The position numbers and the translations under genes are program-made. 54,976 bases of DNA. It comes from a virus. Under the pieces are notes generated by a model, which saw nothing but the letters and a program-made list of their open reading frames with translations, made no database searches and had not been told where the DNA came from. The DNA is taken from the IMG/VR virus record IMGVR_UViG_3300009124_000015, positions 1 through 54,976 of that record; one strand, written 5' to 3'. The first letter of the stretch is position 1. Each line of letters opens with the position of its first letter. Positions 1,244 through 50,911 of the stretch are shown here, piece by piece.

Positions 1244-1463
1244 AAATGTAGTTGATTATGTACGGGCACAGTTTCGTGACATCGACTACGAAAACATGAC
1301 CCTCAAGCAAATCAAAGAAGAAGCCCAGACGTACGCACGTATGACAGGTATGAACGAAGAAGAAGCGAGTCGTCACGCCAAAAGTATGATAGAAACGTGG
1401 CACGAGGTACACGGCAACAACAAAGGCCGCAAAGCGGGCGGTAGTAGCGAAAAGCCCGAGTGA
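1230..1463 (+). CDS. Small acidic helical protein between terminase genes
   Basis: A 77-aa protein, mostly predicted helical and charged, whose start overlaps the small terminase stop by 14 bases and whose TGA overlaps the large terminase ATG (TGATG). Translational coupling on both sides indicates a genuine gene. Residues 25-60 are rich in Glu and Ala and ends in a Gly/Lys-rich tail. A helper role in packaging is suggested only by position. Confidence 0.65.
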   Translation: MERAKNVVDYVRAQFRDIDYENMTLKQIKEEAQTYARMTGMNEEEASRHAKSMIETWHEVHGNNKGRKAGGSSEKPE

Positions 1464-3157
1464 TGACTGACGACGCGCCGAAACGCAAGCGCGGTAGGCC
1501 CAAGAAAGACCCTAATGCCCCGAAGGCAACATACCAGCTTTCTACGCAAGAACGTGCAAGACGCGCGGCGCAGGGCCGCTTACGCTCCGCAAAAACCCGT
1601 GCGGCAAAAGTCTCTAAGGCCGCAGAAGACAAACGTCGCTACGCCCGCCAACTCGAAGAAAAGGTCGGAAAAGTTGAAGAAGCTCTCAAAGGTACTAAGT
1701 CTGCCACAGTCGATCTTGGGGATTTGCATGATTTGCCAGAAGCCGTTTCGGACCTTGTCGGCGAAAGCGAAGTTGTTTTCCAGCCGAATAGCGGACCTCA
1801 AACGGACTTTCTTTCGGCGGGTGAACGAGATGTTCTCTACGGGGGAGCAGCCGGGGGAGGTAAATCTTTCGCTCTCTTGGCCGACCCTCTGCGCTTCTGT
1901 CACAACCCTAATCATCGTGGGCTTCTTCTTAGGCGTACTCTCGACGAGCTAACCGAACTCATCGACAAGTCACGTCAACTCTACACGAAGGCGTTTCCCG
2001 GTGCGAAGTTCCGCGAATCCAAATCCACGTGGGTTTTCCCGTCGGGCGCAACGATCTGGTTTACGTACCTCGACAAAGACAAAGACGTAACCCGCTTTCA
2101 AGGGCAAGCGTTCAACTGGATTGGTATCGACGAAATAACCCAGTACCCCACGCCGTACGTCTGGGACTACTTGCGTTCTCGTCTCCGTGCAACAGACCCC
2201 GAACTCCAACAACACCTCTACATGCGCTGCACAGCCAACCCCGGCGGTGTCGGCGGCTGGTGGGTGAAGAAAACGTACATCGATGGGATCGAGCCGAACA
2301 AAGCGTTCGCCGCATTCGACATCGAAACCGGAAAATCTTTTCTGTGGCCACCGAGCCACGAAAAAGCAGGTCAACCGTTGTTCCTTCGCAAGTTTGTACC
2401 GGCACGGCTGACTGACAATCCCTACCTCATGGCAGATGGTCAATACGAGGCCATGTTGAGGTCGCTCCCGGAAGTCGAGCGGAAGAGACTTCTCGAAGGG
2501 GATTGGGACGTGGCGGAGGGAGCGGCCTTCCCAGAATTTTCACGAGCGAGACATGTGGTCGAACATTTTGAACTTCCAACCAACTGGCCCCGCATACGTG
2601 CGGCAGACTACGGCTATGCGAGTCCGTCGTGCGTTCTTTGGGGGGCTATTGACTGGGATAACAATATCTGGATTTATCGTGAATTATATGCTAAACACTT
2701 GACAGCGGAGCAACTCGCTGATAAAATACTAGAAGCAGAGGAGCTAGACCCGCTCCCTCACTACACCGTCTTAGACTCCTCGTGTTGGAACAAGACGGGT
2801 TTCGGACCTTCGATAGCAGAGACTATGATGCGAGTCGGTGTGCGGTGGACGCCCTCCGACCGTAATCGCATACAAGGAAAGATGGAGGTACACCGTCGCC
2901 TCGCAGACGATCCGTACACAAACGAACCTCGCCTCCGTATCTTTTCAACGTGTACGAATACTGTCAAGCAACTTGCTGGCATACCGCTCTCCAAGAGTAA
3001 CAGCGAAGACGTAGACACAAAGGCCGAAGATCACGCATACGACGCCCTCCGCTATATGGTCATGACACGTATGAGCGGGTACGCTTCGATCCACAAACAA
3101 CTTGGTTCGATCAAAAACCAAGTGTATCAAGTCCAAGACGCTACATTCGGATACTAA
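1463..3157 (+). CDS. terL: Terminase large subunit (packaging ATPase/nuclease)
   Basis: This is the motor that cuts concatemers and pumps DNA into the prohead. The 564-aa protein has a Walker A loop GGAAGGGKS (residues 127-135), a Walker B WIGIDE (219-224, D223/E224) and a C-terminal RNase H-like nuclease region with acidic residues in AADYGY, TVLDSS and AEDHAYDALRY. The N-terminal 60 residues are very basic and contain KRGRPKK, an AT-hook-like motif that is unusual for large terminases. ATG 1463 is preferred over the GTG at 1460 because it overlaps the upstream stop (TGATG). Confidence 0.93.
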   Translation: MTDDAPKRKRGRPKKDPNAPKATYQLSTQERARRAAQGRLRSAKTRAAKVSKAAEDKRRYARQLEEKVGKVEEALKGTKSATVDLGDLHDLPEAVSDLVGESEVVFQPNSGPQTDFLSAGERDVLYGGAAGGGKSFALLADPLRFCHNPNHRGLLLRRTLDELTELIDKSRQLYTKAFPGAKFRESKSTWVFPSGATIWFTYLDKDKDVTRFQGQAFNWIGIDEITQYPTPYVWDYLRSRLRATDPELQQHLYMRCTANPGGVGGWWVKKTYIDGIEPNKAFAAFDIETGKSFLWPPSHEKAGQPLFLRKFVPARLTDNPYLMADGQYEAMLRSLPEVERKRLLEGDWDVAEGAAFPEFSRARHVVEHFELPTNWPRIRAADYGYASPSCVLWGAIDWDNNIWIYRELYAKHLTAEQLADKILEAEELDPLPHYTVLDSSCWNKTGFGPSIAETMMRVGVRWTPSDRNRIQGKMEVHRRLADDPYTNEPRLRIFSTCTNTVKQLAGIPLSKSNSEDVDTKAEDHAYDALRYMVMTRMSGYASIHKQLGSIKNQVYQVQDATFGY

Positions 3158-3160
3158 TAG

Positions 3161-5059
3161 ATGGCAAAGACTATCATATCTACGAATTTCGATCCGTCCC
3201 AAATTACACTCCGGGATTTTATGGAGTTGTACGTCGAAAAGCGCGAAATTAAGAGGGATAACTTTTTTAGCGGTTTTTCCGACGCCGTATTTCAGCCGTA
3301 TATGGACCGGCCCGCTATCGAGTTTTTTGAATCCGCACGAGAAGAGGGGAACCCGCTTCAGAGGTTCTTCGACGATCAAGCGGCTAAGGGCGTAGGCCCC
3401 GGGGGTGCCGAAAAAGCGTACTCTAACGCAAAAAACCTCGAAGATAACATCATACATCAACTCAAGCGCCTCAAGCGCATGGGCGAGTACGCAGATGACA
3501 CGAACGGGTTTCCTCGCCTAACAGATACCGTAGTAAAACCGGCAAAAGGCGCACCCCGATCCAAAAAGTTTAAGATCAATCCGGAAAGGCTCGGACTTCT
3601 CAAAGTAAAACTCATCGAACACGCTCGGGAAAATCCAAAAGATGTCCCGATCGTACGTGCCCTTCTTGTGCAGATGTATACCGGATTTCGTCCGAAAGAA
3701 ATTATACAGATGCCGATGCAAGGCACGATCAAAGAAGCTGCCGAAGGAAGTGTGTCGAAGGGTCTCTTTCTTCCGGCAGGTATCACAAAGATGGACGAAG
3801 CGTTCGCCGTCCCCTTAACTCCGCACCTAGAGTCCGCCCTCAATTCGGCGATCGATAGCAACTCCTCTCGATTTGTAGATCGATCTATGCCAGACCGTAT
3901 GTTTTTAATGGACAATGGCAACCCTATTCCGGAGGGTGCCCTTTCGCGGGTTTTGAAACAAATCGAAGTTCCGGGAATCTTAGAAGATGCCGTAACCGGA
4001 GAGCCTATCAACTTCTTGACAGCCGCGTACGATCTTCGTCGTGCCCACGCCACGGGTGTAAATCAACTCGGCTACGGTGTGGAGGTCGGTGCAAAGATGA
4101 AGGGGCGGGCTATCAAGGCCGCTACTGCTGGTGACGAACCCCGCTACGTAGCAACCGGCTTTAGGTTTCACACTGCAGAAGACTTGACGCCCCACGTAGC
4201 GTGGCACAATTTTATCGACAAAGCATTTGCCGGTGCGGCAGGAATTGAAGGCGGCGGCGTACTCGGAAACGTCATCATAAGCCCCGAGCAAGACGTACTC
4301 GGAAAAGGTATCGTAGCAAATCGCGTGTCCGACCTCATGACTATGGACGTAAACGACATGTCCAACGTCATGATCATGCCTACCGCAATTCCCGGAAATA
4401 TCGCCCTTCCCGCCGCACCCGGAGAAGTAACAGAGGAAGCTATCCGAGATCAGGCGGATCGTTTCGTGAAGAATCTGTCCGGTAAAACCTTTAAGAATCC
4501 CAAGTTTCGCATGGTAGGTCCGGCGCTTCTTGCCGGTGTTGCAGGGGGAGAAGGCGAAGCACCCTCCGATCAAACCATAGATACTACCCTAGAACTGTTG
4601 AGGGATGCGGCTTTCGACGAGGCGGGGTATCAAGCGATCTCTATGCCACTCGTACGGGCCGGGGCATCGATGACCGCCGCAGGTATGGCTGCTACGTTTG
4701 TCCAAGAGGCGTTACGCACCGGAGAAGCAGAAGCACAAGAACGCGACCCGATGGAGCGGGCAGTTTACGAAGAAGAGCTACAAGCTGCAGCCCGCGAAGG
4801 ACAATACGCCCCGGATGCCACAGCTTCAACCCCGTCAGGAGAGACGGTCACATTACCCCGCGTAGAATTTTTCCCGCCGATCGGAAAGGCGGAAGGCGAA
4901 GCACAGACGGTTCTCGAAGAACAATTTGCCGAGCCTGATGTATTCGAGGGCAGCCCTCGTGACGTACAGGAGCGTCGAACGGCTGAAATGGAACGCATAG
5001 TCACTGAAGATACGGCTATGCAAACAGACGAAACCCCGGGCTTTGTGGCCCGCAGATAA
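3161..5059 (+). CDS. Large protein with a tyrosine-recombinase-like core, between terminase and portal
   Basis: The 632-aa protein shows the layout of a tyrosine recombinase in residues about 15-335. There is a core-binding-like start (TLRDFMELYVEKRE), then the Arg I box MYTGFRPKEI (R177), a beta-hairpin lysine ITKMDEAFAVPLT (K210), box II AYDLRRAHAT (R293, with Tyr290 where His is usual), R316 where His/Trp is usual, and Y329 in the nucleophile position. The spacings R293-R316 (23) and R316-Y329 (13) are close to XerD-type enzymes. The C-terminal 300 residues are Ala/Glu-rich and unrecognised. The two replaced histidines could mean altered or lost catalysis. It is 4 bases after terL and is followed by the portal block. 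Confidence 0.65.
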   Translation: MAKTIISTNFDPSQITLRDFMELYVEKREIKRDNFFSGFSDAVFQPYMDRPAIEFFESAREEGNPLQRFFDDQAAKGVGPGGAEKAYSNAKNLEDNIIHQLKRLKRMGEYADDTNGFPRLTDTVVKPAKGAPRSKKFKINPERLGLLKVKLIEHARENPKDVPIVRALLVQMYTGFRPKEIIQMPMQGTIKEAAEGSVSKGLFLPAGITKMDEAFAVPLTPHLESALNSAIDSNSSRFVDRSMPDRMFLMDNGNPIPEGALSRVLKQIEVPGILEDAVTGEPINFLTAAYDLRRAHATGVNQLGYGVEVGAKMKGRAIKAATAGDEPRYVATGFRFHTAEDLTPHVAWHNFIDKAFAGAAGIEGGGVLGNVIISPEQDVLGKGIVANRVSDLMTMDVNDMSNVMIMPTAIPGNIALPAAPGEVTEEAIRDQADRFVKNLSGKTFKNPKFRMVGPALLAGVAGGEGEAPSDQTIDTTLELLRDAAFDEAGYQAISMPLVRAGASMTAAGMAATFVQEALRTGEAEAQERDPMERAVYEEELQAAAREGQYAPDATASTPSGETVTLPRVEFFPPIGKAEGEAQTVLEEQFAEPDVFEGSPRDVQERRTAEMERIVTEDTAMQTDETPGFVARR

Positions 5060-5071
5060 CGGAGCAAATCT

Positions 5072-5290
5072 ATGCCGAACAACAATTACAATTACGGTGC
5101 GGATTACATCATGAATGCTGACAAGACTACTGTCGATGCAAGCATGGGTGAGTCCACACTCTATCGTGAAGGTCTTGAGTTCGATACTCGGGCGAAGACT
5201 GGTGTTCTCACGGAAGACATGCCTAAGAAAATGACTAAGGCTGCTGTCGATCCGTCGGTTATGAGCATGGCCGAAGAGCGCGACTACTAA
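5072..5290 (+). CDS. Small hypothetical protein before the portal
   Basis: A 72-aa hydrophilic protein with a good GGAG ribosome-binding site 7 bases ahead of ATG 5072, lying between the recombinase-like gene and the portal. The sequence begins MPNNNYNYGADYIM and ends in an acidic MAEERDY. No domain is recognised; co-transcription with head genes suggests a minor virion or assembly role. Confidence 0.6.
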   Translation: MPNNNYNYGADYIMNADKTTVDASMGESTLYREGLEFDTRAKTGVLTEDMPKKMTKAAVDPSVMSMAEERDY

Positions 5291-5314: not shown

Positions 5315-7453
5315 ATGGAAGATAGGTTTCTCGAACCTGCTGACGACACTGAAGTACCCGTAGCATCTCCTGAAGAGCAGATGCCGTATCTTTCGGAGTA
5401 TATTCTGAAAAGATTCGAAGACGCCGAAAACGGGCGTTACGCGTACGAACAGCGGTGGCTACAGGCATACAAAAACTTTCGTGGAATTTACGATTCGAGT
5501 ACGCAATACCGAGAATCTGAGCGATCTAAGGTATTCATCAAGATCACCAAAACAAAGGTTCTTGCTGCGTACGGTCAGATCGTAGACATTCTCTTTTCGA
5601 ATAAAAAGTTCCCGATTGTTGTCGAGCCTACCCCAGTTCCGGAGGGTGTAGCCGAATTCGCTCACCTCAAAACTCCTCTCGACGAAGTTGTTTCACAGCA
5701 GCAAACTCCGATGATCGATCCGTACGGATTCGAGGGGGACGGACGAGAACTAGCTCCGGGCGCTATGCAAGCCGAGCAACCACACTTCTTAGGTGCGTAT
5801 GGGGCGACTATGCAAAATGCAAACGTCGTTCCGGGAAAGGCACTTGCAGGTGAGCCACAAATTTCACCGGCTCAAGAATCCGCCCTCAAGTGTGAAAAGA
5901 CGATCCACGACCAACTCGTCGATACAAATGCCGTAACGGTTATCCGCAAAAGCATATTCGAAGCCGCTCTTCTCGGCACGGGTGTTCTCAAAGGCCCGCT
6001 GAATATGTATAAACGTATTCATCGTTGGGAAAACGGCGAGGACGGGGAACGGGAATACAATCCGTACGAAAAGGTAGTTCCGCGCATCGAACACGTTTCG
6101 ATTTGGGATTTCTACCCCGATCCGGCTGCTGTCAACATCGAGGATTGCGAATACGTAATCCAGCGGCACCGGATGAATCGCCAACAGCTTCGCAGCCTTC
6201 TTTTGATGCCTCACTTTAGGGCGGAAGCCGTCGAGGCGACAATCGCATCCGGCCCTAACTACGACGACAAATACTTTGAAGATACAATCCGAGAAGACGA
6301 AACAGAGGCGTACTACAACGAAAGTCGCTTCGAGGTTTTCGAATATTGGGGAGTGATCGATACGGATATGGCCGAATCTATCGGCATCTCTCGTGAAGAG
6401 CTTCCGGATAATCTCTCTCAAGTTCAGGTGAACGCGTGGGTATGCGGCGGAAACGTACTGCGGTGTGTTGTCAATCCGTTTACCCCCGCTCGTATTCCAT
6501 ACTTTGCTTTGCCGTACGAAATCAACCCGTATCAAATCTGGGGCGTCGGTGTTGCAGAGAATATGGAAGACGCTCAGATGTTGATGAATGGTCACGTCCG
6601 TATGGCAATCGACAACCTTGCCCTTGCCGGTAACCTCGTCTTCGATGTAGACGAAGCGTCGTTGGTACCCGGACAGAACATGGACATCTTCCCGGGTAAG
6701 ATTTTCCGTCGTCAGTCGGGTGTTACAGGAACAGCGATCAACGGTCTCAAGTTCCCGAACACGGCTCCTGAAAACATTCAGATGTATCAGATAAGCCGTC
6801 AACTCGCAGACGAAGAGACAGGTCTACCTTCTATTATGCACGGACAGACGGGTGTGTCAGGCACAGGACGTACCGCAGCGGGTTTGTCTATGCTTCTGGG
6901 TAGCGCAAGCCTGTCGATGAAGACTGTCATTAAGAATATTGACGATCATCTTTTGAAGCCACTCGGTGAAGCGTATTACCAGTGGAATATGCAGTTCAAC
7001 GAAGCGATGGACGATATAAAGGGCGACTTGGAAATCAAGCCCCGGGGTATCGCTGCCGTTATGCAAAAAGAAGTTCGAAGTCAGAGATTGATCGGTCTTC
7101 TTCAAACCGTATCTAATCCGATGCTAGCTCCGTTTATCAAGATTCCGAACCTTCTTCGCGAACTTGCTATCACACAGGATATCGATCCGGACAGCCTTGT
7201 CAACGACGTAAACGAGGCTCAAATCTACGCACAGATGCTACAGGGGATGATGGCTAATGCTCAACAAGAATCAGGCCCAGATGGTGGCCCCGCTGGTCAA
7301 CAACAACCCGGCATGGACGGGGCTAGAGGAGTACCTCAACAGCCTCAAGGAGATAACAGTGCAGGGCCTAGCGGGGGCGCAATCGGAGTCGGAACTGCGC
7401 CAACTGCAGGGGAAGCTGGTTTTACTGGAAACACTCCTGAAGTTGAAGAGTAA
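5315..7453 (+). CDS. Portal protein (head-tail connector)
   Basis: The 712-aa protein is the dodecameric ring at the packaging vertex through which DNA enters and leaves. Size, position after terL and before scaffold/capsid genes, and internal segments typical of podovirus portals (RSKVFIKITKTKVLAAYGQIVDILFS; WDFYPDPAA near the middle; DEETGLPSIMHGQ) support this. The last 65 residues are low-complexity Gln/Gly/Pro-rich and are overlapped in the +1 frame by another gene, which may explain their composition. Confidence 0.85.
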   Translation: MEDRFLEPADDTEVPVASPEEQMPYLSEYILKRFEDAENGRYAYEQRWLQAYKNFRGIYDSSTQYRESERSKVFIKITKTKVLAAYGQIVDILFSNKKFPIVVEPTPVPEGVAEFAHLKTPLDEVVSQQQTPMIDPYGFEGDGRELAPGAMQAEQPHFLGAYGATMQNANVVPGKALAGEPQISPAQESALKCEKTIHDQLVDTNAVTVIRKSIFEAALLGTGVLKGPLNMYKRIHRWENGEDGEREYNPYEKVVPRIEHVSIWDFYPDPAAVNIEDCEYVIQRHRMNRQQLRSLLLMPHFRAEAVEATIASGPNYDDKYFEDTIREDETEAYYNESRFEVFEYWGVIDTDMAESIGISREELPDNLSQVQVNAWVCGGNVLRCVVNPFTPARIPYFALPYEINPYQIWGVGVAENMEDAQMLMNGHVRMAIDNLALAGNLVFDVDEASLVPGQNMDIFPGKIFRRQSGVTGTAINGLKFPNTAPENIQMYQISRQLADEETGLPSIMHGQTGVSGTGRTAAGLSMLLGSASLSMKTVIKNIDDHLLKPLGEAYYQWNMQFNEAMDDIKGDLEIKPRGIAAVMQKEVRSQRLIGLLQTVSNPMLAPFIKIPNLLRELAITQDIDPDSLVNDVNEAQIYAQMLQGMMANAQQESGPDGGPAGQQQPGMDGARGVPQQPQGDNSAGPSGGAIGVGTAPTAGEAGFTGNTPEVEE

Positions 7454-7485: not shown

Positions 7486-9462
7486 ATGTTCAACTGGTAC
7501 GACACCAAAAATTTAGGTTTGAACTGGTATGAGTACGTGCTTCCTGCGGAGGAGGATACGGATTCGACAACGCCGATTGTTTCTCCGGAAACTATCACGT
7601 CGGCACAGATGTTTGGAGCCGTACGAGAACAGCAAGACGAAGACCCGAACACTATTCGGATGCGTCGTAGATCGCAAACCGGAAGACTCGATCTTATGAA
7701 CGCAAAAATGATAGGCTATACAGACATTAAATATGGTGACTTTAACGGATACTTAAAAGAAAAGGGTCTTCCGGACCGTTCCGGATTCTTTGCAAACACC
7801 CATTTTCCTACCTCCGAAAAGGGTATGACATCTATGCAAGGGGCGGGAATTGCCGGGGGATTAACTGGTGGAAATCCGTTTATGGGATTGATGGGTGGTT
7901 TTATCGGTGCCGAATCGCAAATTGTAGCCGATCCGACCGGAGAGTATAACAGAAATATTCCAAAGACCGGCATAGGTAATCCCCTCGCTTCTATTGCCAT
8001 CTCTAGTGAGTACGCGGGTTTGGGAAAAATCCGTGACGCGTGGTCGGCTAATCCTACGGGATCGCTACAGGAAAACGGATTTGCTTTCAATCTCGGCGGC
8101 GTTACTGTGTGGCGCGATCCGAATAGCAATCGCTACAGCGGTCAACTCGATCGTATCGGACTAGATCAGCGCACGGCTCGTGATCTCGAAAGTCTGATGG
8201 TTGGTCGGGAGTTGGGAGATCAACTTGTTAATAATTATTTGAACGCAGAGTCAATACCCTTTTTTACCGATCTTGCGATTGCTGCCGGAATGTACCCGGA
8301 TAGCTACGGACGAGTTATCGTCGATAATGTTCAAGGTTTTGACTTTGATAATATCGTTTTGGGTACGAAAAATGGCGGTTACACCCTCGACGGACGCTTC
8401 AACTTCAAAGGACAGATGGGGCGTAACGGTCGTATGGAGGACTTTGATAACCTCGTAGATACCGTTTTTGATGGTAACAAAGATTCTGCTCGTAGCTGGC
8501 TAAATACATCTCGCTCTACCAAGTTCGAGTCGGCAGCAGATAAGATTCAGAACTTGCAATACTTTATTTTGAAGTCTCGTGGTTTCGAACACGTAACAGC
8601 TATGAATATGATTTCTACTGCGGGTACTACCGTGCCGTCCACAACTTCTACGACGAAAACCACCTCAACAACGACTCCCGCGCCTTCTGCACCGGCCCCG
8701 CAGCCCGCAGCAGGTCCGACGGGGGCAGCAGGTCCGACGGGGGATGAGCGTGTTAGCTCATTACTCGCTGCAGGTGAGACCCGATTTGCTAATATTCTCG
8801 GTCGTGGCTTTGTCGCAGTCGACGAGGGCACTACGTTTACGTCGCAACGAGAGAGCGTCGATTCCGCTCCAGCCGGTCGTAGCTTCAGCGTTAGCTACAG
8901 CGAATATGGTGGTGGTGCCGGAACTCCGAGCGGCGGGGGCACGGGCTTTGGGTTCCGCGCACAAGGTGGTCCTATCCTCAGACAAGAGGGTGGCGGCGTA
9001 CCTGCCGATCCGGAAGGATTTGTGCGTGGCGCACCCCGTCCACAACCTGAAGATAGCATCGTTTCTAGGGATGAAATTCAACGCCCCGCCCCGGAATCTG
9101 GTTTTGTCGTGCGGCCTCCATCACAAGTGTCTGAGGATGCTTCGATTGCCGATGATATCGACATGGAACCGGAAGTTGGCGGTGAAGTTATCAATGCCTC
9201 TGCCGTATCTGTTGCGGGCGAAAAAGACATCTACGAAATGATCGAAGACGCTAAAAAGTACCGCAAAAACGTAAAAGGTATTGACAAACCCGTAGAAACG
9301 AGTAATATTAAAATATCGGCAGGAGAAGTCTATGTAGACCCCGAGCTTGCCGACATCATAGGCCGCGACAAGATTCGTAAGATCAACGAGCGCGGCGTCC
9401 CCGCCACAAAGAAAAAACAGCAGCGTTCTCAACGCGCCTCTCGTGGCACAAAAGTTTCCTAA
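7486..9462 (+). CDS. Putative virion protein with Gly/Pro-rich linker
   Basis: A 658-aa protein between portal and scaffold. It has a globular N-terminal two-thirds (to about residue 380), then a Thr/Pro/Ala linker with a GPTGAAGPTG collagen-like piece (about 400-420), a Gly-rich zone, and a C-terminal motif ISAGEVYVDPELADIIGRDKIRKIN. This is of the type ...GE..V....A..IG...L..lN seen at the ends of many phage structural proteins. The tail is strongly basic. Start ATG 7486 has AAGGAAAC upstream. Exact role is unknown. Confidence 0.6.
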   Translation: MFNWYDTKNLGLNWYEYVLPAEEDTDSTTPIVSPETITSAQMFGAVREQQDEDPNTIRMRRRSQTGRLDLMNAKMIGYTDIKYGDFNGYLKEKGLPDRSGFFANTHFPTSEKGMTSMQGAGIAGGLTGGNPFMGLMGGFIGAESQIVADPTGEYNRNIPKTGIGNPLASIAISSEYAGLGKIRDAWSANPTGSLQENGFAFNLGGVTVWRDPNSNRYSGQLDRIGLDQRTARDLESLMVGRELGDQLVNNYLNAESIPFFTDLAIAAGMYPDSYGRVIVDNVQGFDFDNIVLGTKNGGYTLDGRFNFKGQMGRNGRMEDFDNLVDTVFDGNKDSARSWLNTSRSTKFESAADKIQNLQYFILKSRGFEHVTAMNMISTAGTTVPSTTSTTKTTSTTTPAPSAPAPQPAAGPTGAAGPTGDERVSSLLAAGETRFANILGRGFVAVDEGTTFTSQRESVDSAPAGRSFSVSYSEYGGGAGTPSGGGTGFGFRAQGGPILRQEGGGVPADPEGFVRGAPRPQPEDSIVSRDEIQRPAPESGFVVRPPSQVSEDASIADDIDMEPEVGGEVINASAVSVAGEKDIYEMIEDAKKYRKNVKGIDKPVETSNIKISAGEVYVDPELADIIGRDKIRKINERGVPATKKKQQRSQRASRGTKVS

Positions 9463-22456: not shown

Positions 22457-23797
22457 ATGTTTGCATCCTCCTCATTTTCGCAAGCACCTTTTTCGTCTCC
22501 GGGTACTTCGATCTTTGAGGTAACTGCTTCTGTTTCTGGTGCCGCTAGTGTATCAGTATCGGCAGTTCGGGTAAAAGATGCAACAACATCTGTATCGGGT
22601 GCCGCTACCGTATCGGGAAGCGCAACCCGCCGCTTTGTAGGTGCAGCGTCCGTATCCGGTGCTGCTACCGTATCCGGATCGGCAACGTCATTCAAGGCAG
22701 CGACGGCATCTGCGTCCGGTGTGGGTACGATCAGCGGAGCAGCCACTCTCGAAACTCCGGCAGGTGCGTCCGTATCCGGTGCCGGTTCGCAAACGGGAGC
22801 GGCTACAGCCCGTCTCGTTGCAAGCGGCTCTCTTTCCGCGAGTGGCACGTCGAGTGCAACAGGAACAGCCCGTCGTCCGGGTGACTCGGACATCTCCGGT
22901 GCAGCGACGATATCCGGAACTACGCTACTCAGGGCTACGGGTTCGTCGTCAGTATCCGGTGCGGCAACGGTATCGTCGAGCGGGGTACGGGTTCAAGAGG
23001 GTGGTGCCTCTGTATCCGGCGCAACGACGGTATCATCACAAGCCACGCTTCGCGCCCCGGCTGATTCGTCCGTATCCGGTGTGGCAACCACATCATCTGC
23101 CGCAACCCTACGCGCCCCGGCTGACTCGTCCGTATCTGGCGCAGGTACGATTTCCGGAGCGGGAATTAGGGTTCGTACCGGGGAAAGCTTCGTATCCGGT
23201 GCGGGTACGGTTTCTGCAACCGGCGACAAAATACGAGACGGTTCAGCGTCCGTATCGGGTGCAACCACCGTATCTGCGTCTGTGTTGCGGATCAAAGACG
23301 GTACCTCTTCTGTATCCGGCGCAACCACCATATCGGCGGGCGGGGTGCGGATACAAGAGGGTGAGGGTAGCGCCGACGGTGCCGCCTCTCAATCTAGCTC
23401 GGTAGTTCGGATACGTAACGGTGCAGCATCCGTGTCGGGTGCAACGACAGTATCTGCAGCAGGTATTCGAATACAAGTCGTAGCGAGTTCCGTAATCGGA
23501 ACCGGCTCGGTCGCAGGAGTTGCAAGCCGTCTCACAGCAGGAGCCGCATCCGTATCCGGACAGGCAACTGTCGTCGCAACCGGCTTCCGGTCGTTCTTCT
23601 TCGACGCGACACTCTACGAACGCAAGCACGTCGTATTCGTACCCGCAGAACAACAGCGTGTAGTTCACGTCACACAGCCGACAGAACACATCCTTTACGT
23701 CGTACAAGATAAACAACGAATTGTGTTCGTACCCGAAGAAAAACCACGAGTTGTATCTGTGCCACAAGCCGCACAAAGATTAGCAAAGGTAGCATAA
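22457..23797 (+). CDS. Repetitive fibrous protein of eighteen 20-aa repeats
   Basis: The 446-aa protein has a 22-residue head, then residues 23-382 divide exactly into 18 units of 20 residues with consensus xASVSGAxTVSxxAxRxxxG, then a C-terminal segment with Val-rich strands (HVVFVPAEQ, RVVHVTQP, RIVFVPEE, RVVSVP). Such regular Ser/Gly/Val repeats suggest a beta-helical or extended fibre. It sits between the fibre chaperone and another fibre gene. Repeat number is probably variable between relatives. Function in adsorption is inference. Confidence 0.65.
   Translation: MFASSSFSQAPFSSPGTSIFEVTASVSGAASVSVSAVRVKDATTSVSGAATVSGSATRRFVGAASVSGAATVSGSATSFKAATASASGVGTISGAATLETPAGASVSGAGSQTGAATARLVASGSLSASGTSSATGTARRPGDSDISGAATISGTTLLRATGSSSVSGAATVSSSGVRVQEGGASVSGATTVSSQATLRAPADSSVSGVATTSSAATLRAPADSSVSGAGTISGAGIRVRTGESFVSGAGTVSATGDKIRDGSASVSGATTVSASVLRIKDGTSSVSGATTISAGGVRIQEGEGSADGAASQSSSVVRIRNGAASVSGATTVSAAGIRIQVVASSVIGTGSVAGVASRLTAGAASVSGQATVVATGFRSFFFDATLYERKHVVFVPAEQQRVVHVTQPTEHILYVVQDKQRIVFVPEEKPRVVSVPQAAQRLAKVA
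22523..23602 (+). repeat. 60-bp coding tandem repeat, 18 units
   Basis: The DNA repeats with a 60-base period corresponding to the 20-aa units. The best conserved stretch is around TCCGTATCCGGTGC. Units differ at many positions, so this is an old expansion, though some adjacent units (for example the two around 23,041-23,130) are nearly identical and point to recent duplication. Confidence 0.8.
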
Positions 23798-30479: not shown

Positions 30480-31094
30480 ATGTTTCAAGGCTCAAACAAA
30501 AAGGAAGTACGTCGTGGTTCGACAGAAGCCATCGATCAGTTTTCTGCGGCACCTCCGGGAATCTCCCTGACAAGCGACAATTCAAAGTGGCCGTGGGGAA
30601 ATCCCCCTCAAGAGGTAGACGTAGATGTTATCGTGGAGAACGCCGCCCGTAAACTCCAAAATGATGACGTGTTCCGTGACGAGATGTTCAAGCTTCTTTT
30701 GGCAGGTGTATCGATCGAACACATCGTAGAGACGTGGGTTATCGACGGATTTCAAAACGGACGCTTTAGTCTCGACACCGGACTCCTTGCAAAGGGTCCG
30801 CTCGGCGTGTTTGTTGCCTATATGGCCGACTCGAACGGCGTACCTTACCGTATGTTCGAAAAGGATAACCCACAAGACGAGCGGCGCATGGATGATGCGA
30901 CGTACTTCCGCCTCATGAAAACGAACAATCCGGCTATGTTCTCAACTATCCGCGAGGGCTTGAACAGGGCTATTCGCAACGGAGAAAAGGCTTTCAACGA
31001 AGAGTTCGAAAGAATGGAAACCGAAGTTGAAGATCGAGATCGCAACGATAATAATAATGACGACGACGAGACCAGAGAAGGATTTATGGACTGA
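30480..31094 (+). CDS. Hypothetical internal or tail protein
   Basis: A 204-aa protein with a central helical region (VDVIVENAARKLQNDDVFRDEMFKLLLAGVSIEHIVE) and a very acidic, Asn/Asp-rich tail (RDRNDNNNDDDETREG). AAGAGGT precedes ATG and its stop overlaps the next start (TGATG). The IVETWV...GF..G.F..D..LLA.GPL context resembles proteins seen beside internal virion genes in marine phages. Function not known. Confidence 0.55.
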   Translation: MFQGSNKKEVRRGSTEAIDQFSAAPPGISLTSDNSKWPWGNPPQEVDVDVIVENAARKLQNDDVFRDEMFKLLLAGVSIEHIVETWVIDGFQNGRFSLDTGLLAKGPLGVFVAYMADSNGVPYRMFEKDNPQDERRMDDATYFRLMKTNNPAMFSTIREGLNRAIRNGEKAFNEEFERMETEVEDRDRNDNNNDDDETREGFMD

Positions 31095-43209: not shown

Positions 43210-43588
43210 TCTTACACCATCCCTCCGGGATCGAACCTTCCGCCCATTCGAAGTTGTGCTTTGTAGCCCACGCAGCGTACGTAGTCTTAGAGCCTTTGTA
43301 AATTTTATTCTGTGCGCGAAGGAACACAAAACGAATATCGAGATCGGGGTGTTGTTCTTTGACAAGAAGCATCTTCATCCGATCGCTTTTATCGAGATGC
43401 CCCTTCGCCTCGATGTAAACATCCGTCTCTGGGATGTAGAAGTCTGGTGTGTACGTCCGGGGCTTCGGTACGTACGTCAGCTTCGTACTTTCGTACTCGT
43501 ACGTTACGCCCCGTTCCGCAAGCGCACGGGCCAAGTTGAGTTCGAAGTTCGACCGGAACCCGGCCTTACCCGCCGAACTTTTCTTCAT
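43202..43588 (-). CDS. Holliday-junction resolvase, T7 endonuclease I family
   Basis: The 128-aa protein aligns well with T7 gp3: FRSNFELNLARALAERG, then KLTYV..PRTYTPDFYIP, YIEAKGHLDKSDRMKMLLVKEQHPDLDIRFVF and NKIYKGSKTTYAAWATKHNFEWAEG..P..W. Catalytic Glu, Asp (TPDF) and Glu-X-Lys (EAK) are present. It resolves branched replication and packaging intermediates. ATG 43588 overlaps the upstream stop (ATGA) and matches the T7 protein length better than a longer start at 43696. Confidence 0.9.
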   Translation of the reverse strand: MKKSSAGKAGFRSNFELNLARALAERGVTYEYESTKLTYVPKPRTYTPDFYIPETDVYIEAKGHLDKSDRMKMLLVKEQHPDLDIRFVFLRAQNKIYKGSKTTYAAWATKHNFEWAEGSIPEGWCKNG

Positions 43589-43965
43589 AGACGCATTCCG
43601 ACGGACGCTAGCCTTTTTAGGAGATACCCTGCCAGTTTTGGCGATAGGCGTTCCAAAGGAGAGAATTCGTTTGTCAAGCGAGTCAGAGGGACGCATACAT
43701 TTGCTCCGGTGTTTGCAAGGCGACTGATCTTTCCGATCTCCGCCTCGACAGTTGTGATGTCACGCTTCTCCGTCTCGGAAGATAACGCACCTAAGTCACT
43801 GAAATTATTACGCAACGTAAGAGGCAAGCCTCGCGAGTGTTGTCGAAGGAACACGGTCTTTCGCTCACCACCCGCACCGACGTGCGACTCGACGTACACG
43901 TGATACATATCATTGTTTAATTCTAAGAGTTCTAAGTCGTAGTCTCGAATGAAAACGTACGGCAC
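43585..43965 (-). CDS. Hypothetical protein upstream of the resolvase
   Basis: A 126-aa protein starting with GTG 43965, 7 bases after AGGAG lying in the preceding stop region. It begins MPYVFIRDYDLELLELNNDMYHVYVESHVG, beta-rich, and ends with a Leu/Arg-rich helical tail. The stop overlaps the resolvase ATG (ATGA), supporting it as a genuine gene. No family recognised. Confidence 0.6.
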   Translation of the reverse strand: MPYVFIRDYDLELLELNNDMYHVYVESHVGAGGERKTVFLRQHSRGLPLTLRNNFSDLGALSSETEKRDITTVEAEIGKISRLANTGANVCVPLTRLTNEFSPLERLSPKLAGYLLKRLASVGMRL

Positions 43966-45752: not shown

Positions 45753-47294
45753 TTACAGTTCTACTTCGTGCAAGTCAAGCCAATTTTTACCTGCTTTGAT
45801 CTCTATTCCGACAGGCATGTTGTACGTGACACCATAACGTCGAACAGTTTCAAAGGGTAACGAGAGCATAGCGTGTTTCATCATGTCTATGCAAATATTT
45901 TTTTCATCCGGGTGTACGTCCATAACGATCGAATCGTGTACGGTGTTGCAAATCACACTGCGTACTCCGGAGTCGCGTACGATCTTCTCTAAGGCGACGA
46001 GAGCAATAGGCAAGAGGTCAGCCGTAGCGAACCCCTGAACCGGGTAGTTACAGATCGACGTGCGGTGTGTAGCCGTCCCGTACTTCGTCCACCGGGCATC
46101 TGGGAAGGCGTACTCCCGTCCGGACGGAAGGGTGATTACTCGCTTCTCAACAGCCGTACGCTGGAGGTGGTCGTGCCACAGGGTAACACCCTCGTACTTT
46201 TCCTTGAACGCCTTGTAGTAGCGTTGTTGAGCCTCTGTGCCGGTTGTGCCTCCGTAGAGGGGCTTGAAGGTATGTGCCTTCGCCTCTTGGCGTGTGCAGC
46301 CGATAACGGATGCGGTGTAATTGTGTACGTCCGTTCCGTTCCGTACGTCGATGTACGCCTGTGCATCGTTCGCAAGGAACCCGGCAACCCGAAACTCTAG
46401 CTGCGAGTAATCCCCCTCAACGATGAAGCCACCCTCGAAGCGGCTCTCGACCACCTTGCGTATAGCGAAGGTATTTCCACGTGGCATATTCTGAAAGTTA
46501 GGATTGCGAGACGAAAGGCGACCCGTCGCCGTAACGCACTGCATAAACTCCGGATGGATGAATCCCTTCTCATCGACATTGTTCTTGATCCCTTCTACAA
46601 ATGTGTTGAGGTACGTACGCAACGCATTGAACCGGACGTACCCCGTGACAAACTCACGAGCGTCACCGGACAACTCGGACGAGCGTACGTCGAGTGTCTC
46701 CTTGTCCGTACGAAATCCGGCAGAGGCCACGTCGTACGCATCACGGGGAGATATCTTGAACCCGGCAACTTCCGTACTCGGTATGTAAAGGACGCCGACA
46801 CCATCACACCGCTTACACACACGTACCGCCTTGCCGAGCGTACCATCCTTCTTCGTTACGCGATTACGACCGTGACCGTTGCACGACGTACACGTCTCGG
46901 CACGTGTCCTGTAAACGATGTCCGTCATACGGCGGACGGTCTGGTTGAATTCTTTCTTTGCAAAGCGGGTACGCTGCTTCGGCTTCATCGTTGCACCGCG
47001 TTGCTCCATGCCCAAGTTGAACGTGCGTGACCACTCGCGCTTGTCTTTTACTTTGCGTGAGTAGAGAAGCATCGACCGGTCGTCGGGGCTTGTCAGACTG
47101 ACGGGTGTGTCACCCATCGCGTTACGCGCCAAGTCATTGAGACGAGCCTCTAAGGTCTCTAGCTCTTCGGTATACATCTTCTCGATCTCGTCGAGTGTAT
47201 CCATGTTTATCTTTAGGCCGACCCGCTCGACACGAGCGAGTACGTCTGTCATTTCAAGCGACAGCTTCAGTGTGGGTACGAGTCCCTTTTCCAT
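45753..47294 (-). CDS. A-family DNA polymerase with DnaJ-type zinc insert
   Basis: The 513-aa polymerase replicates the genome. Motif A is EGDYSQLEF (D295), motif B R335/K339/F343/Y347 (RQEAKAHTFKPLYGG) and motif C TVHDSIV (H453, D454). Position 343 corresponds to E. coli Phe762 and is Phe. An insert carries CTSCNGHG (135-142) and CKRCDGVG (160-167), the DnaJ CxxCxGxG zinc motif. The 3'-5' exonuclease is a separate gene overlapping by 41 bases in another frame; GAGGAG (47302-47307) lies 7 bases before ATG. The residues after the start (GLVPTLKLSLEMTDVLARVERVGL) are what normally follows the exonuclease in a fused Pol I. Confidence 0.92.
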   Translation of the reverse strand: MEKGLVPTLKLSLEMTDVLARVERVGLKINMDTLDEIEKMYTEELETLEARLNDLARNAMGDTPVSLTSPDDRSMLLYSRKVKDKREWSRTFNLGMEQRGATMKPKQRTRFAKKEFNQTVRRMTDIVYRTRAETCTSCNGHGRNRVTKKDGTLGKAVRVCKRCDGVGVLYIPSTEVAGFKISPRDAYDVASAGFRTDKETLDVRSSELSGDAREFVTGYVRFNALRTYLNTFVEGIKNNVDEKGFIHPEFMQCVTATGRLSSRNPNFQNMPRGNTFAIRKVVESRFEGGFIVEGDYSQLEFRVAGFLANDAQAYIDVRNGTDVHNYTASVIGCTRQEAKAHTFKPLYGGTTGTEAQQRYYKAFKEKYEGVTLWHDHLQRTAVEKRVITLPSGREYAFPDARWTKYGTATHRTSICNYPVQGFATADLLPIALVALEKIVRDSGVRSVICNTVHDSIVMDVHPDEKNICIDMMKHAMLSLPFETVRRYGVTYNMPVGIEIKAGKNWLDLHEVEL

Positions 47295-47838
47295 CGAACA
47301 ACTCCTCGAATGTTACGCCAAAGGCGTCTAGCTGTTTCAGAGCAATTTCTTCCGTAGCCTTAACGTCGGCTATTCCGTACTCTCGTACGATTTCCCACGG
47401 TATGTCGTAGAAGGTCTTACCATTCTCGATATACGGCGCAACAAGGTCAGTCTCCTTTTGGGTAACACCATACTTCCTTGCAAGAGCAGCAAGTCCGAGA
47501 GGCCAACGCCGCGCCTTCGATAGAACATATTCCGCAACCATCGTATCATAGATATCTCCGTCGTAAGTAAAGCCACACTCGCGTATCCACTGCAAGTCGA
47601 ACTTGATGTTCTGACCCACGAGTACGTCAGCGTGGTCGAGTGATAGTTGAAACTTTTCGGCAGCAGCCTGTGTCGGGGGTTCAGTCGAGTGATAGTAGCA
47701 GTCGTAGTCAACGCCGCTGACCAACCACTTGTACCCGATGGACACCAAACGATTACCGAAGTAGGGCAGAGGTGTGTAACCCCCACTCGGCTTCTCCACG
47801 TGCGTCGTCTCGACATCAAACGTCAGTACGTTTACCAT
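47254..47838 (-). CDS. 3'-5' proofreading exonuclease (DEDDy), separate from the polymerase
   Basis: The 194-aa protein contains the three exonuclease motifs: Exo I FDVET (D8, E10), Exo II VGQNIKFD (D81) and Exo III YGIADVKAT (Y154, D158). In most A-family polymerases, and as I recall in HMO-2011, this domain is fused to the polymerase. Here it ends with a frame-specific tail TRTHTEAVA after FDGKG, precisely where the polymerase begins. ATG 47838 overlaps the previous stop. Confidence 0.87.
   Translation of the reverse strand: MVNVLTFDVETTHVEKPSGGYTPLPYFGNRLVSIGYKWLVSGVDYDCYYHSTEPPTQAAAEKFQLSLDHADVLVGQNIKFDLQWIRECGFTYDGDIYDTMVAEYVLSKARRWPLGLAALARKYGVTQKETDLVAPYIENGKTFYDIPWEIVREYGIADVKATEEIALKQLDAFGVTFEELFDGKGTRTHTEAVA
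47284..47307 (-). promoter_or_regulatory. Ribosome-binding site and possible +1 frameshift site at the exo/pol overlap
   Basis: Reading leftwards, GAGGAG (47302-47307) is followed by the polymerase ATG (47294-47292). In the exonuclease frame the same DNA reads GGA AAA GGG, where a Lys-tRNA could slip from AAA to AAG (+1) and enter the polymerase frame. An upstream SD-like element is a known stimulator of +1 shifting in prfB, though usually closer. Independent initiation is the simpler explanation. Confidence 0.45.
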
Positions 47839-50625: not shown

Positions 50626-50884
50626 ACTGTTCAAAGATCGAAAGGGTGACGATCTCGTGCCGTACGTTTCGTCGAGGGATGATCGGCACGAAGTTGTCGC
50701 TCCGGTATCATCCGTACGCATCGGGGAGACACGGCGCGAACTTGTGAAGTCGGGCCAGTGTATCGACTACGCACGGTGGGTTGCCTTGTACGTCGGAAAA
50801 AATAACGAAGAGTGCAAAAGGTGGCTTGACACATACAAAGCACGGGTGCTAAAACTGTGTATACCCTACGAAGTGTCCTCGTAG
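50612..50884 (+). CDS. Hypothetical small basic protein
   Basis: The 90-aa product begins MRKIKLFKDRKGDDLVPYVS. ATG 50612 follows an AAGGGGGG site and overlaps the preceding gene by 14 bases; an upstream extension to 50549 is shadow sequence. C-terminal half (ARWVALYVGKNNEECKRWLDTYKARV) is helical. It is followed by a strong terminator. No family recognised. Confidence 0.6.
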   Translation: MRKIKLFKDRKGDDLVPYVSSRDDRHEVVAPVSSVRIGETRRELVKSGQCIDYARWVALYVGKNNEECKRWLDTYKARVLKLCIPYEVSS

Positions 50885-50911
50885 GGTACGTTTCTCCTAA
50901 GCTACCGTTGA

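Follow-up and report, generated by a model that had tools for sequence, protein, structure and literature searches.

What is a gene resembling a tyrosine recombinase doing inside the packaging operon of a phage, between the terminase and the portal? The question was raised by a 54,976-base IMG/VR virus record (IMGVR_UViG_3300009124_000015), the whole of which was analysed here and is called the window. On its plus strand, an open reading frame (ORF) of 632 aa with an ATG start (3161–5059) occupies the gap between the genes for the terminase large subunit (TerL; 1460–3157, plus strand; phrog_979, 2.4e-61) and the portal protein (5315–7453, plus strand; identified by Pfam, PHROG and comparison with named phages). 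The spacing between the end of TerL and the start of this ORF is 3 nt, and a 72-aa ORF (5072–5290, plus strand), which was also called in nearly all close relatives, lies between it and the portal gene. We refer to the position as the slot. An earlier note on this DNA had described such an ORF between terminase and portal, and this arrangement was confirmed, with TerL on its 5' side and the portal on its 3' side.

The window portal is 44–52% identical to proteins of Pelagibacter phage HTVC115P, HMO-2011 and the roseophages CRP. HMO-2011-type phages are defined by a DNA polymerase with a pair of CXXCXGXG motifs (PMC9038755). Both features of this type were found in the window: two DnaJ-type CXXCXGXG motifs in the DNA polymerase ORF (45753–47294) and homologous portal, TerL and capsid proteins (TerL and capsid by PHROGs). 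The polymerase lies on the minus strand and is split between overlapping ORFs (45753–47294, polymerase, 513 aa; 47254–47838, exonuclease, 194 aa). In HMO-2011 and the CRP phages it is a single ORF, and the arrangement in the window may be a split gene, a frameshift or an assembly error.

Sequence profiles detected the slot ORF weakly, with a Pfam Phage_integrase match of E=2.3e-4 (21.4 bits, the curated cut-off being 27.1) and a PHROG integrase match of 3.8e-4. Such weak matches, below the Pfam cut-off, may explain why genes of this kind escape annotation. An AlphaFold model, built with 56 slot homologues, had pLDDT values mostly >90 over residues ~10–435, with a dip at residues 311–340 (~52 at 321–330, around Tyr329). 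The C-terminal extension of ~290 residues (300 in the earlier note) is real; it was modelled confidently to ~435, and is largely disordered after residue ~440. The best Foldseek matches in the PDB were XerH (1.9e-4) and lambda Int (2.2e-4), both with a probability of 1.00, and further top matches were Tn1549 Int, XerA and Cre. Every PDB match at E<=0.001 was a tyrosine recombinase, and matches in the viral library included named integrases. Alignments with recombinases of two domains, XerH and lambda Int among them, spanned 310–340 columns. An N-terminal helical, core-binding-like domain (residues ~14–130, boundary set by eye; 3200–3550, plus strand) was recognized by AlphaFold and Foldseek, its helices at residues 17–106 having pLDDT values of ~77–97. 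It is followed by the catalytic domain (residues ~140–345; 3578–4195, plus strand), which was also recognized by Pfam and alignment.

The active-site residues, all on the plus strand, were found where the earlier note had placed them. Conservation was counted over 62 non-identical slot members, in an alignment of divergent domains that is uncertain outside the motifs. R177 (Arg-I; 3689–3691) and R293 (Arg-II; 4037–4039) were present in all 62, and the nucleophile Y329 (4145–4147) in 61, the sole exception (L086) looking like a misalignment. The beta-hairpin lysine K210 (3788–3790) was matched by a Lys of this region in most of the members inspected, although the alignment is gappy there. The positions of the two catalytic histidines are occupied by Tyr290 and Arg316, again as described. 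The former (His-II; 4028–4030) is variable in the family, most often being Y, S, A or K, and the latter (His-III; 4106–4108) is R in 41 of the 62 members and H in the other 21. The fold, Arg-I, Arg-II, Tyr and beta-hairpin Lys of tyrosine recombinases are therefore present, and the His (or Lys) of the His-II position is missing from the window protein, which has Y290 instead. Natural His-II substitutions occur in tyrosine recombinases, for which Arg/Arg/Tyr is the stricter criterion. On account of its fold and R/K/R/Y residues, with His-II replaced and His-III variable, we assign the slot gene to the tyrosine recombinases, and its product is very likely to be one. The earlier note had named two outcomes that would speak against its reading, namely no recombinase-fold match and loss of R177, R293 or Y329 in close relatives; neither occurred, because the fold was matched and the three residues are kept. 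Xer/XerH, lambda Int and Cre share with the slot protein the core-binding plus catalytic domain fold and the R..K..R..Y order, but they have no 290-residue tail and are encoded outside packaging operons. They also retain the canonical His-II and His-III (or Trp). Catalytic competence is predicted for the slot recombinase; with His-II lost and His-III often Arg, its activity could be reduced.

Searches of named phages and of IMG/VR with the slot protein matched no relatives, and five slot proteins (that of the window and four diverse ones) had none among 50,697 phage records. Relatives were therefore reached via the portal, and the 80 closest IMG/VR loci (portal 72–85% identical) were retrieved. 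A profile of the recombinase domain matched in the TerL–portal gap of 73 of these; in the other seven, the contig starts inside or after the slot. On the basis of simple longest-ORF calls, essentially all loci in which the gap was complete had an ORF of 527–866 aa between TerL and an ORF of 69–77 aa, one of these slot genes (in L016) looking frameshifted. In a sister clade (L205–L224), the slot ORFs were 555–920 aa long and most of them could be recognized as recombinases. One of these (L211, 793–3555) encodes a 920-aa protein with the full R-K-H-R-H-Y set, as judged by eye; its active site, with HNIRH and ARHADFKTTAIYY, is fully canonical, and its C-terminal end is PSFLEMDQ. In other clades, the slot was empty, without insertion, or contained a protein of 200–500 aa that was unrecognized as a recombinase; in L146–L173, for example, the gap was either empty or held a protein of this size ending in YKxGGKV...MGGKVY repeats. 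Since its content varies between clades (recombinase, other protein or nothing), the slot is an optional cargo position. Judged from these sequences, the slot recombinase is widespread in uncultured marine phages and is not a one-off. No description of the gene was found in the open-access literature searched, nor was any named relative.

Comparison of near-identical phages revealed that the recombinase domain and the tail (4196–5056 in the window, plus strand; delimited by AlphaFold and by protein and DNA comparison) are exchanged independently. Unrelated recombinase domains (21% identity) occur in phages whose TerL and portal are 98% identical, the swap beginning at the second codon of the slot gene. 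In the pair L082/L085, the DNA is 98% identical through TerL up to codon 2, has no match from there to codon ~486, and is 98.5% identical from codon ~486 through the portal. The same breakpoints were observed in L046/L064, and in L040/L041 the recombinase domains are 21% identical and the last 100 residues 99% identical. The converse also occurs: in L030/L032, L072/L081 and L008/L010 the recombinase is kept and the tail replaced, with identity returning at or near the C-terminal end (in L030/L032, the domains are 97% and the tails 27% identical). Portal identity across these loci is ~75%, which makes the slot gene a hypervariable cassette flanked by conserved genes. A second hypervariable slot, with a fixed position and swapped C-terminal parts, was observed immediately beyond the portal (7486–9462 in the window, plus strand; also in L008–L087).

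The extreme C-terminus of the tail offered a further clue. The window protein ends in ETPGFVARR (5030–5056, plus strand), in which a scan of the tails found the motif [GSN]F[LIMV]. This motif was present in the last 40 residues of 48 of the 62 slot proteins, usually starting 4–9 residues from the end, and was missing from the tails of the remaining 14. Shuffled tails contained it in a mean of 3.9 and a maximum of 13 cases (2000 shuffles), and among 306 other 40-residue windows taken from these extensions, 11 had it. Sister-clade tails mostly had other endings (..GF, ..PLGP). In long records of relatives, occurrence of the motif within the last 20 residues was nearly confined to three plausible genes: the slot gene, a late gene of 182–204 aa and the gene after the portal. 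All remaining matches were in spurious-looking or unassigned ORFs.

In the window, the second of these genes encodes a 204-aa late protein ending in REGFMD (30480–31094, plus strand). All 23 distinct relatives of this protein carried the motif (shuffled mean 1.5, maximum 6), although one of the six retrieval patterns used to gather them contained the motif itself, which introduces a mild bias; homologues from a whole-protein search likewise carried it. In 20 of the 23 it took the form [GSN]F[LIMV]xM (NFMTM and the like), which is also a common slot ending (for example, DNFLTMQP) and was found in 15 slot members. The homologues in HMO-2011 and CRP-603 end in TGLMARRK and GLMSKES, respectively. 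A predicted structure of the 204-aa protein had low confidence and gave no fold match, and the protein has no annotated function; the position of its gene appears to resemble that of small core/ejection genes. The third gene, the highly variable late ORF after the portal, had the motif at its C-terminus in 25 of 63 relatives and at its N-terminus in others, and the C-terminus of the window copy is without it. We hypothesize that [GSN]F[LIMV] is a common docking peptide. As the tail ends in a motif common to other late phage proteins, the recombinase may be incorporated into the virion.

Taken together, the best reading, to which we give a probability of about one half, is that the slot gene encodes an active, site-specific tyrosine recombinase with a modular tail and a docking motif, possibly residing in the virion. 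Of its elements, the recombinase fold, the near-invariance of R/R/Y, purifying selection within types, the constant place of the gene in the packaging operon of this clade, the module swaps and the common motif are shown directly. Under this reading, the recombinase would be made late, from the packaging operon, and its C-terminal peptide would dock it to a partner that the 204-aa late protein binds as well. Docking would place the enzyme in the assembling head and might allow its delivery together with the DNA. It would act on phage and/or host DNA as an integrase or genome circulariser; its action might follow injection, for integration or circularisation, or take place during packaging. The target site would differ between types, and the swaps of the recombinase domain would reflect changes of this site. 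We consider a role as integrase or genome circulariser likely, and put the status of virion cargo at somewhat below even odds; a search of open-access papers returned no virion proteomics for the clade. More tentatively, a large clade of marine phages might package its own recombinase through a C-terminal docking peptide and inject it with the genome, the modules being exchanged in the manner of polymorphic effectors. If so, integration or circularisation could start before any phage gene is expressed.

Parallels to parts of this scheme are known. In polymorphic effector or toxin genes, the enzymatic module and the delivery or tail module are exchanged independently. The slot gene differs from polymorphic toxins in that, across the clade, its enzyme module is always a DNA recombinase and is N-terminal, with the tail at the C-terminus. 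Encapsulins use short cargo-loading peptides to load enzymes into a shell of the HK97 fold (PMC10960027, PMC8346489). These peptides differ in sequence from the slot motif, and the likeness is an analogy only.

Several other explanations were weighed against this reading. First, the gene might be a conventional integrase relocated to the late operon, its tail serving as a linker or as a DNA- or partner-binding extension and the protein remaining outside the virion. The fold and catalytic residues fit such an enzyme, and the usual integrase on the primase side is absent. In CRP-3, CRP-603 and HMO-2011, an integrase gene lies near the primase (cf. PMC9038755), and CRP-3 has been shown to integrate, at tRNA-Met (PMC6918029). 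In the window and 15 records of relatives, no second PF00589 match was found, and the window contains no other integrase. The integrases of these phages (HMO-2011 gp09, CRP-3 gp02 and CRP-603 gp18) are also tyrosine recombinases and belong to phages whose packaging genes are homologous and whose DNA polymerase is of the same type, but they comprise 292–357 aa, lie near primase/replication genes and have no long tail. Their profile similarity to the slot family is weak (E 9.5e-6 to 0.0055).

A possible integration site was observed in one relative, G001, in which the slot gene is the only PF00589 match and no resolvase (PF00239) match was found. This genome has an intergenic sequence resembling a tRNA 3' end without a full tRNA, which would favour an integrase. 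The site (L124 ~5600–5740, corresponding to G001 ~43600–43740) lies 3' of the ribonucleotide reductase gene; the last codons of that gene (VCEVVDLNAA) recur after the tRNA-3'-end-like GCGGGTTCAAATCCCGCCGCCCCGCCA. This insertion-like scar and candidate attP is suggestive only, and may have arisen by chance. Bare T-arm matches were about as many in shuffled sequence, no exact host match was found in 385 and 289 alphaproteobacterial genomes, and comparison with plasmids and phages returned tRNA-like partial matches, the best being tRNA-Trp ends. The window has no equivalent of this site and no tRNA or credible tRNA fragment. No att or recombination site was found in it, no intergenic space adjoins the gene, and no att-like site lies beside it, as the earlier note had stated. 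Two candidates in the window were rejected: a GGTTCGATCCC match at 43227, which reappears in a similar context in G003 and looks coding, and an inverted repeat at 50862–50888 (perfect 10-bp arms, 7-nt spacer) in a region of short ORFs, such repeats numbering two in the window and 0–2 in shuffles. A scan of genome contigs with the portal profile found no prophage carrying the slot recombinase and returned phage-like contigs in MAGs and distant portals. In view of these negative results on att sites and prophages, we did not file the gene as a phage integrase. The earlier note had suggested an unrecognized integrase of a supposedly lytic phage. This agrees with all observations and the primase-side integrase is missing, but an att site could not be demonstrated in the window. 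Late expression would also be an odd time for integration, and the C-terminal motif common to other late proteins is unexpected for a conventional integrase, which we regard as an unlikely explanation.

Second, the protein might be a late resolvase or circulariser of Cre/Xer type, acting on concatemeric or terminally redundant phage DNA while tethered to the packaging machinery. A model for this is Cre-lox of P1, in which a phage recombinase circularises terminally redundant DNA. The position beside TerL, the Xer/Cre-like fold and the motif common to late proteins would all agree with such a role. However, other clades that have homologues of the packaging genes carry either nothing in the slot or a protein unrecognized as a recombinase, so that packaging as such does not need one, and wholesale swapping of recombinase domains would be unexpected for an enzyme acting on an internal housekeeping site. 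P1 Cre also differs in lying outside a terminase–portal operon and in having no tail, and we know of no family-wide domain swapping in it. We therefore consider this explanation quite improbable.

Third, the earlier note had proposed a repurposed recombinase fold in head assembly, that is, a catalytically dead protein reused as a structural or DNA-binding head component. The late-operon position and the replacement of His-II, and often of His-III, would be in line with this. Yet Arg-I, Arg-II and Tyr are essentially invariant in proteins that are otherwise very divergent (mean column identity of the recombinase family only 16%), dN/dS is low within recombinase types (0.04–0.19 for pairs with unsaturated dS), and the sister-clade protein of L211 keeps a canonical H..R..H..Y. 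Loss of catalysis is thus disfavoured, and this explanation is very unlikely. Finally, a telomere resolvase (protelomerase) forming hairpin ends, to which the loss of some canonical His residues and a length similar to that of TelN/TelK might point, is hardly credible, as the window has no long palindrome or inverted repeat and the structure search returned site-specific recombinases, none of them a protelomerase.

The active recombinase with an exchangeable, docking tail, which we favour, would bear on how the lifestyle of these phages is judged. HMO-2011-type phages have been reported to be a dominant group in the sea, and those subgroups in which no integrase is recognized have been interpreted as possibly obligately lytic (PMC9038755). 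Because the packaging operon here contains a divergent recombinase that scores below the usual Pfam cut-off, a missing annotated integrase is weak evidence in relatives of this sort, the window itself having found no place in a published subgroup. The mosaic slot gene also provides natural experiments, since phages that are 98% identical differ in their recombinases, and the C-terminal motif common to the late proteins is a candidate phage cargo-loading signal. Relative to the open-access literature searched, the combination of TerL–portal position, long exchangeable tail and late-protein C-terminal motif is new.

Two further observations concern other genes of these phages. A late protein of the window (22457–23797) is built of ~20-residue repeats with a 60-base period. 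In Sinorhizobium phage phiM6 (L005, 4819–6426), the ORF immediately 5' of the portal is annotated as an SGNH/GDSL hydrolase, which is another enzyme near the slot-equivalent position in a related phage.
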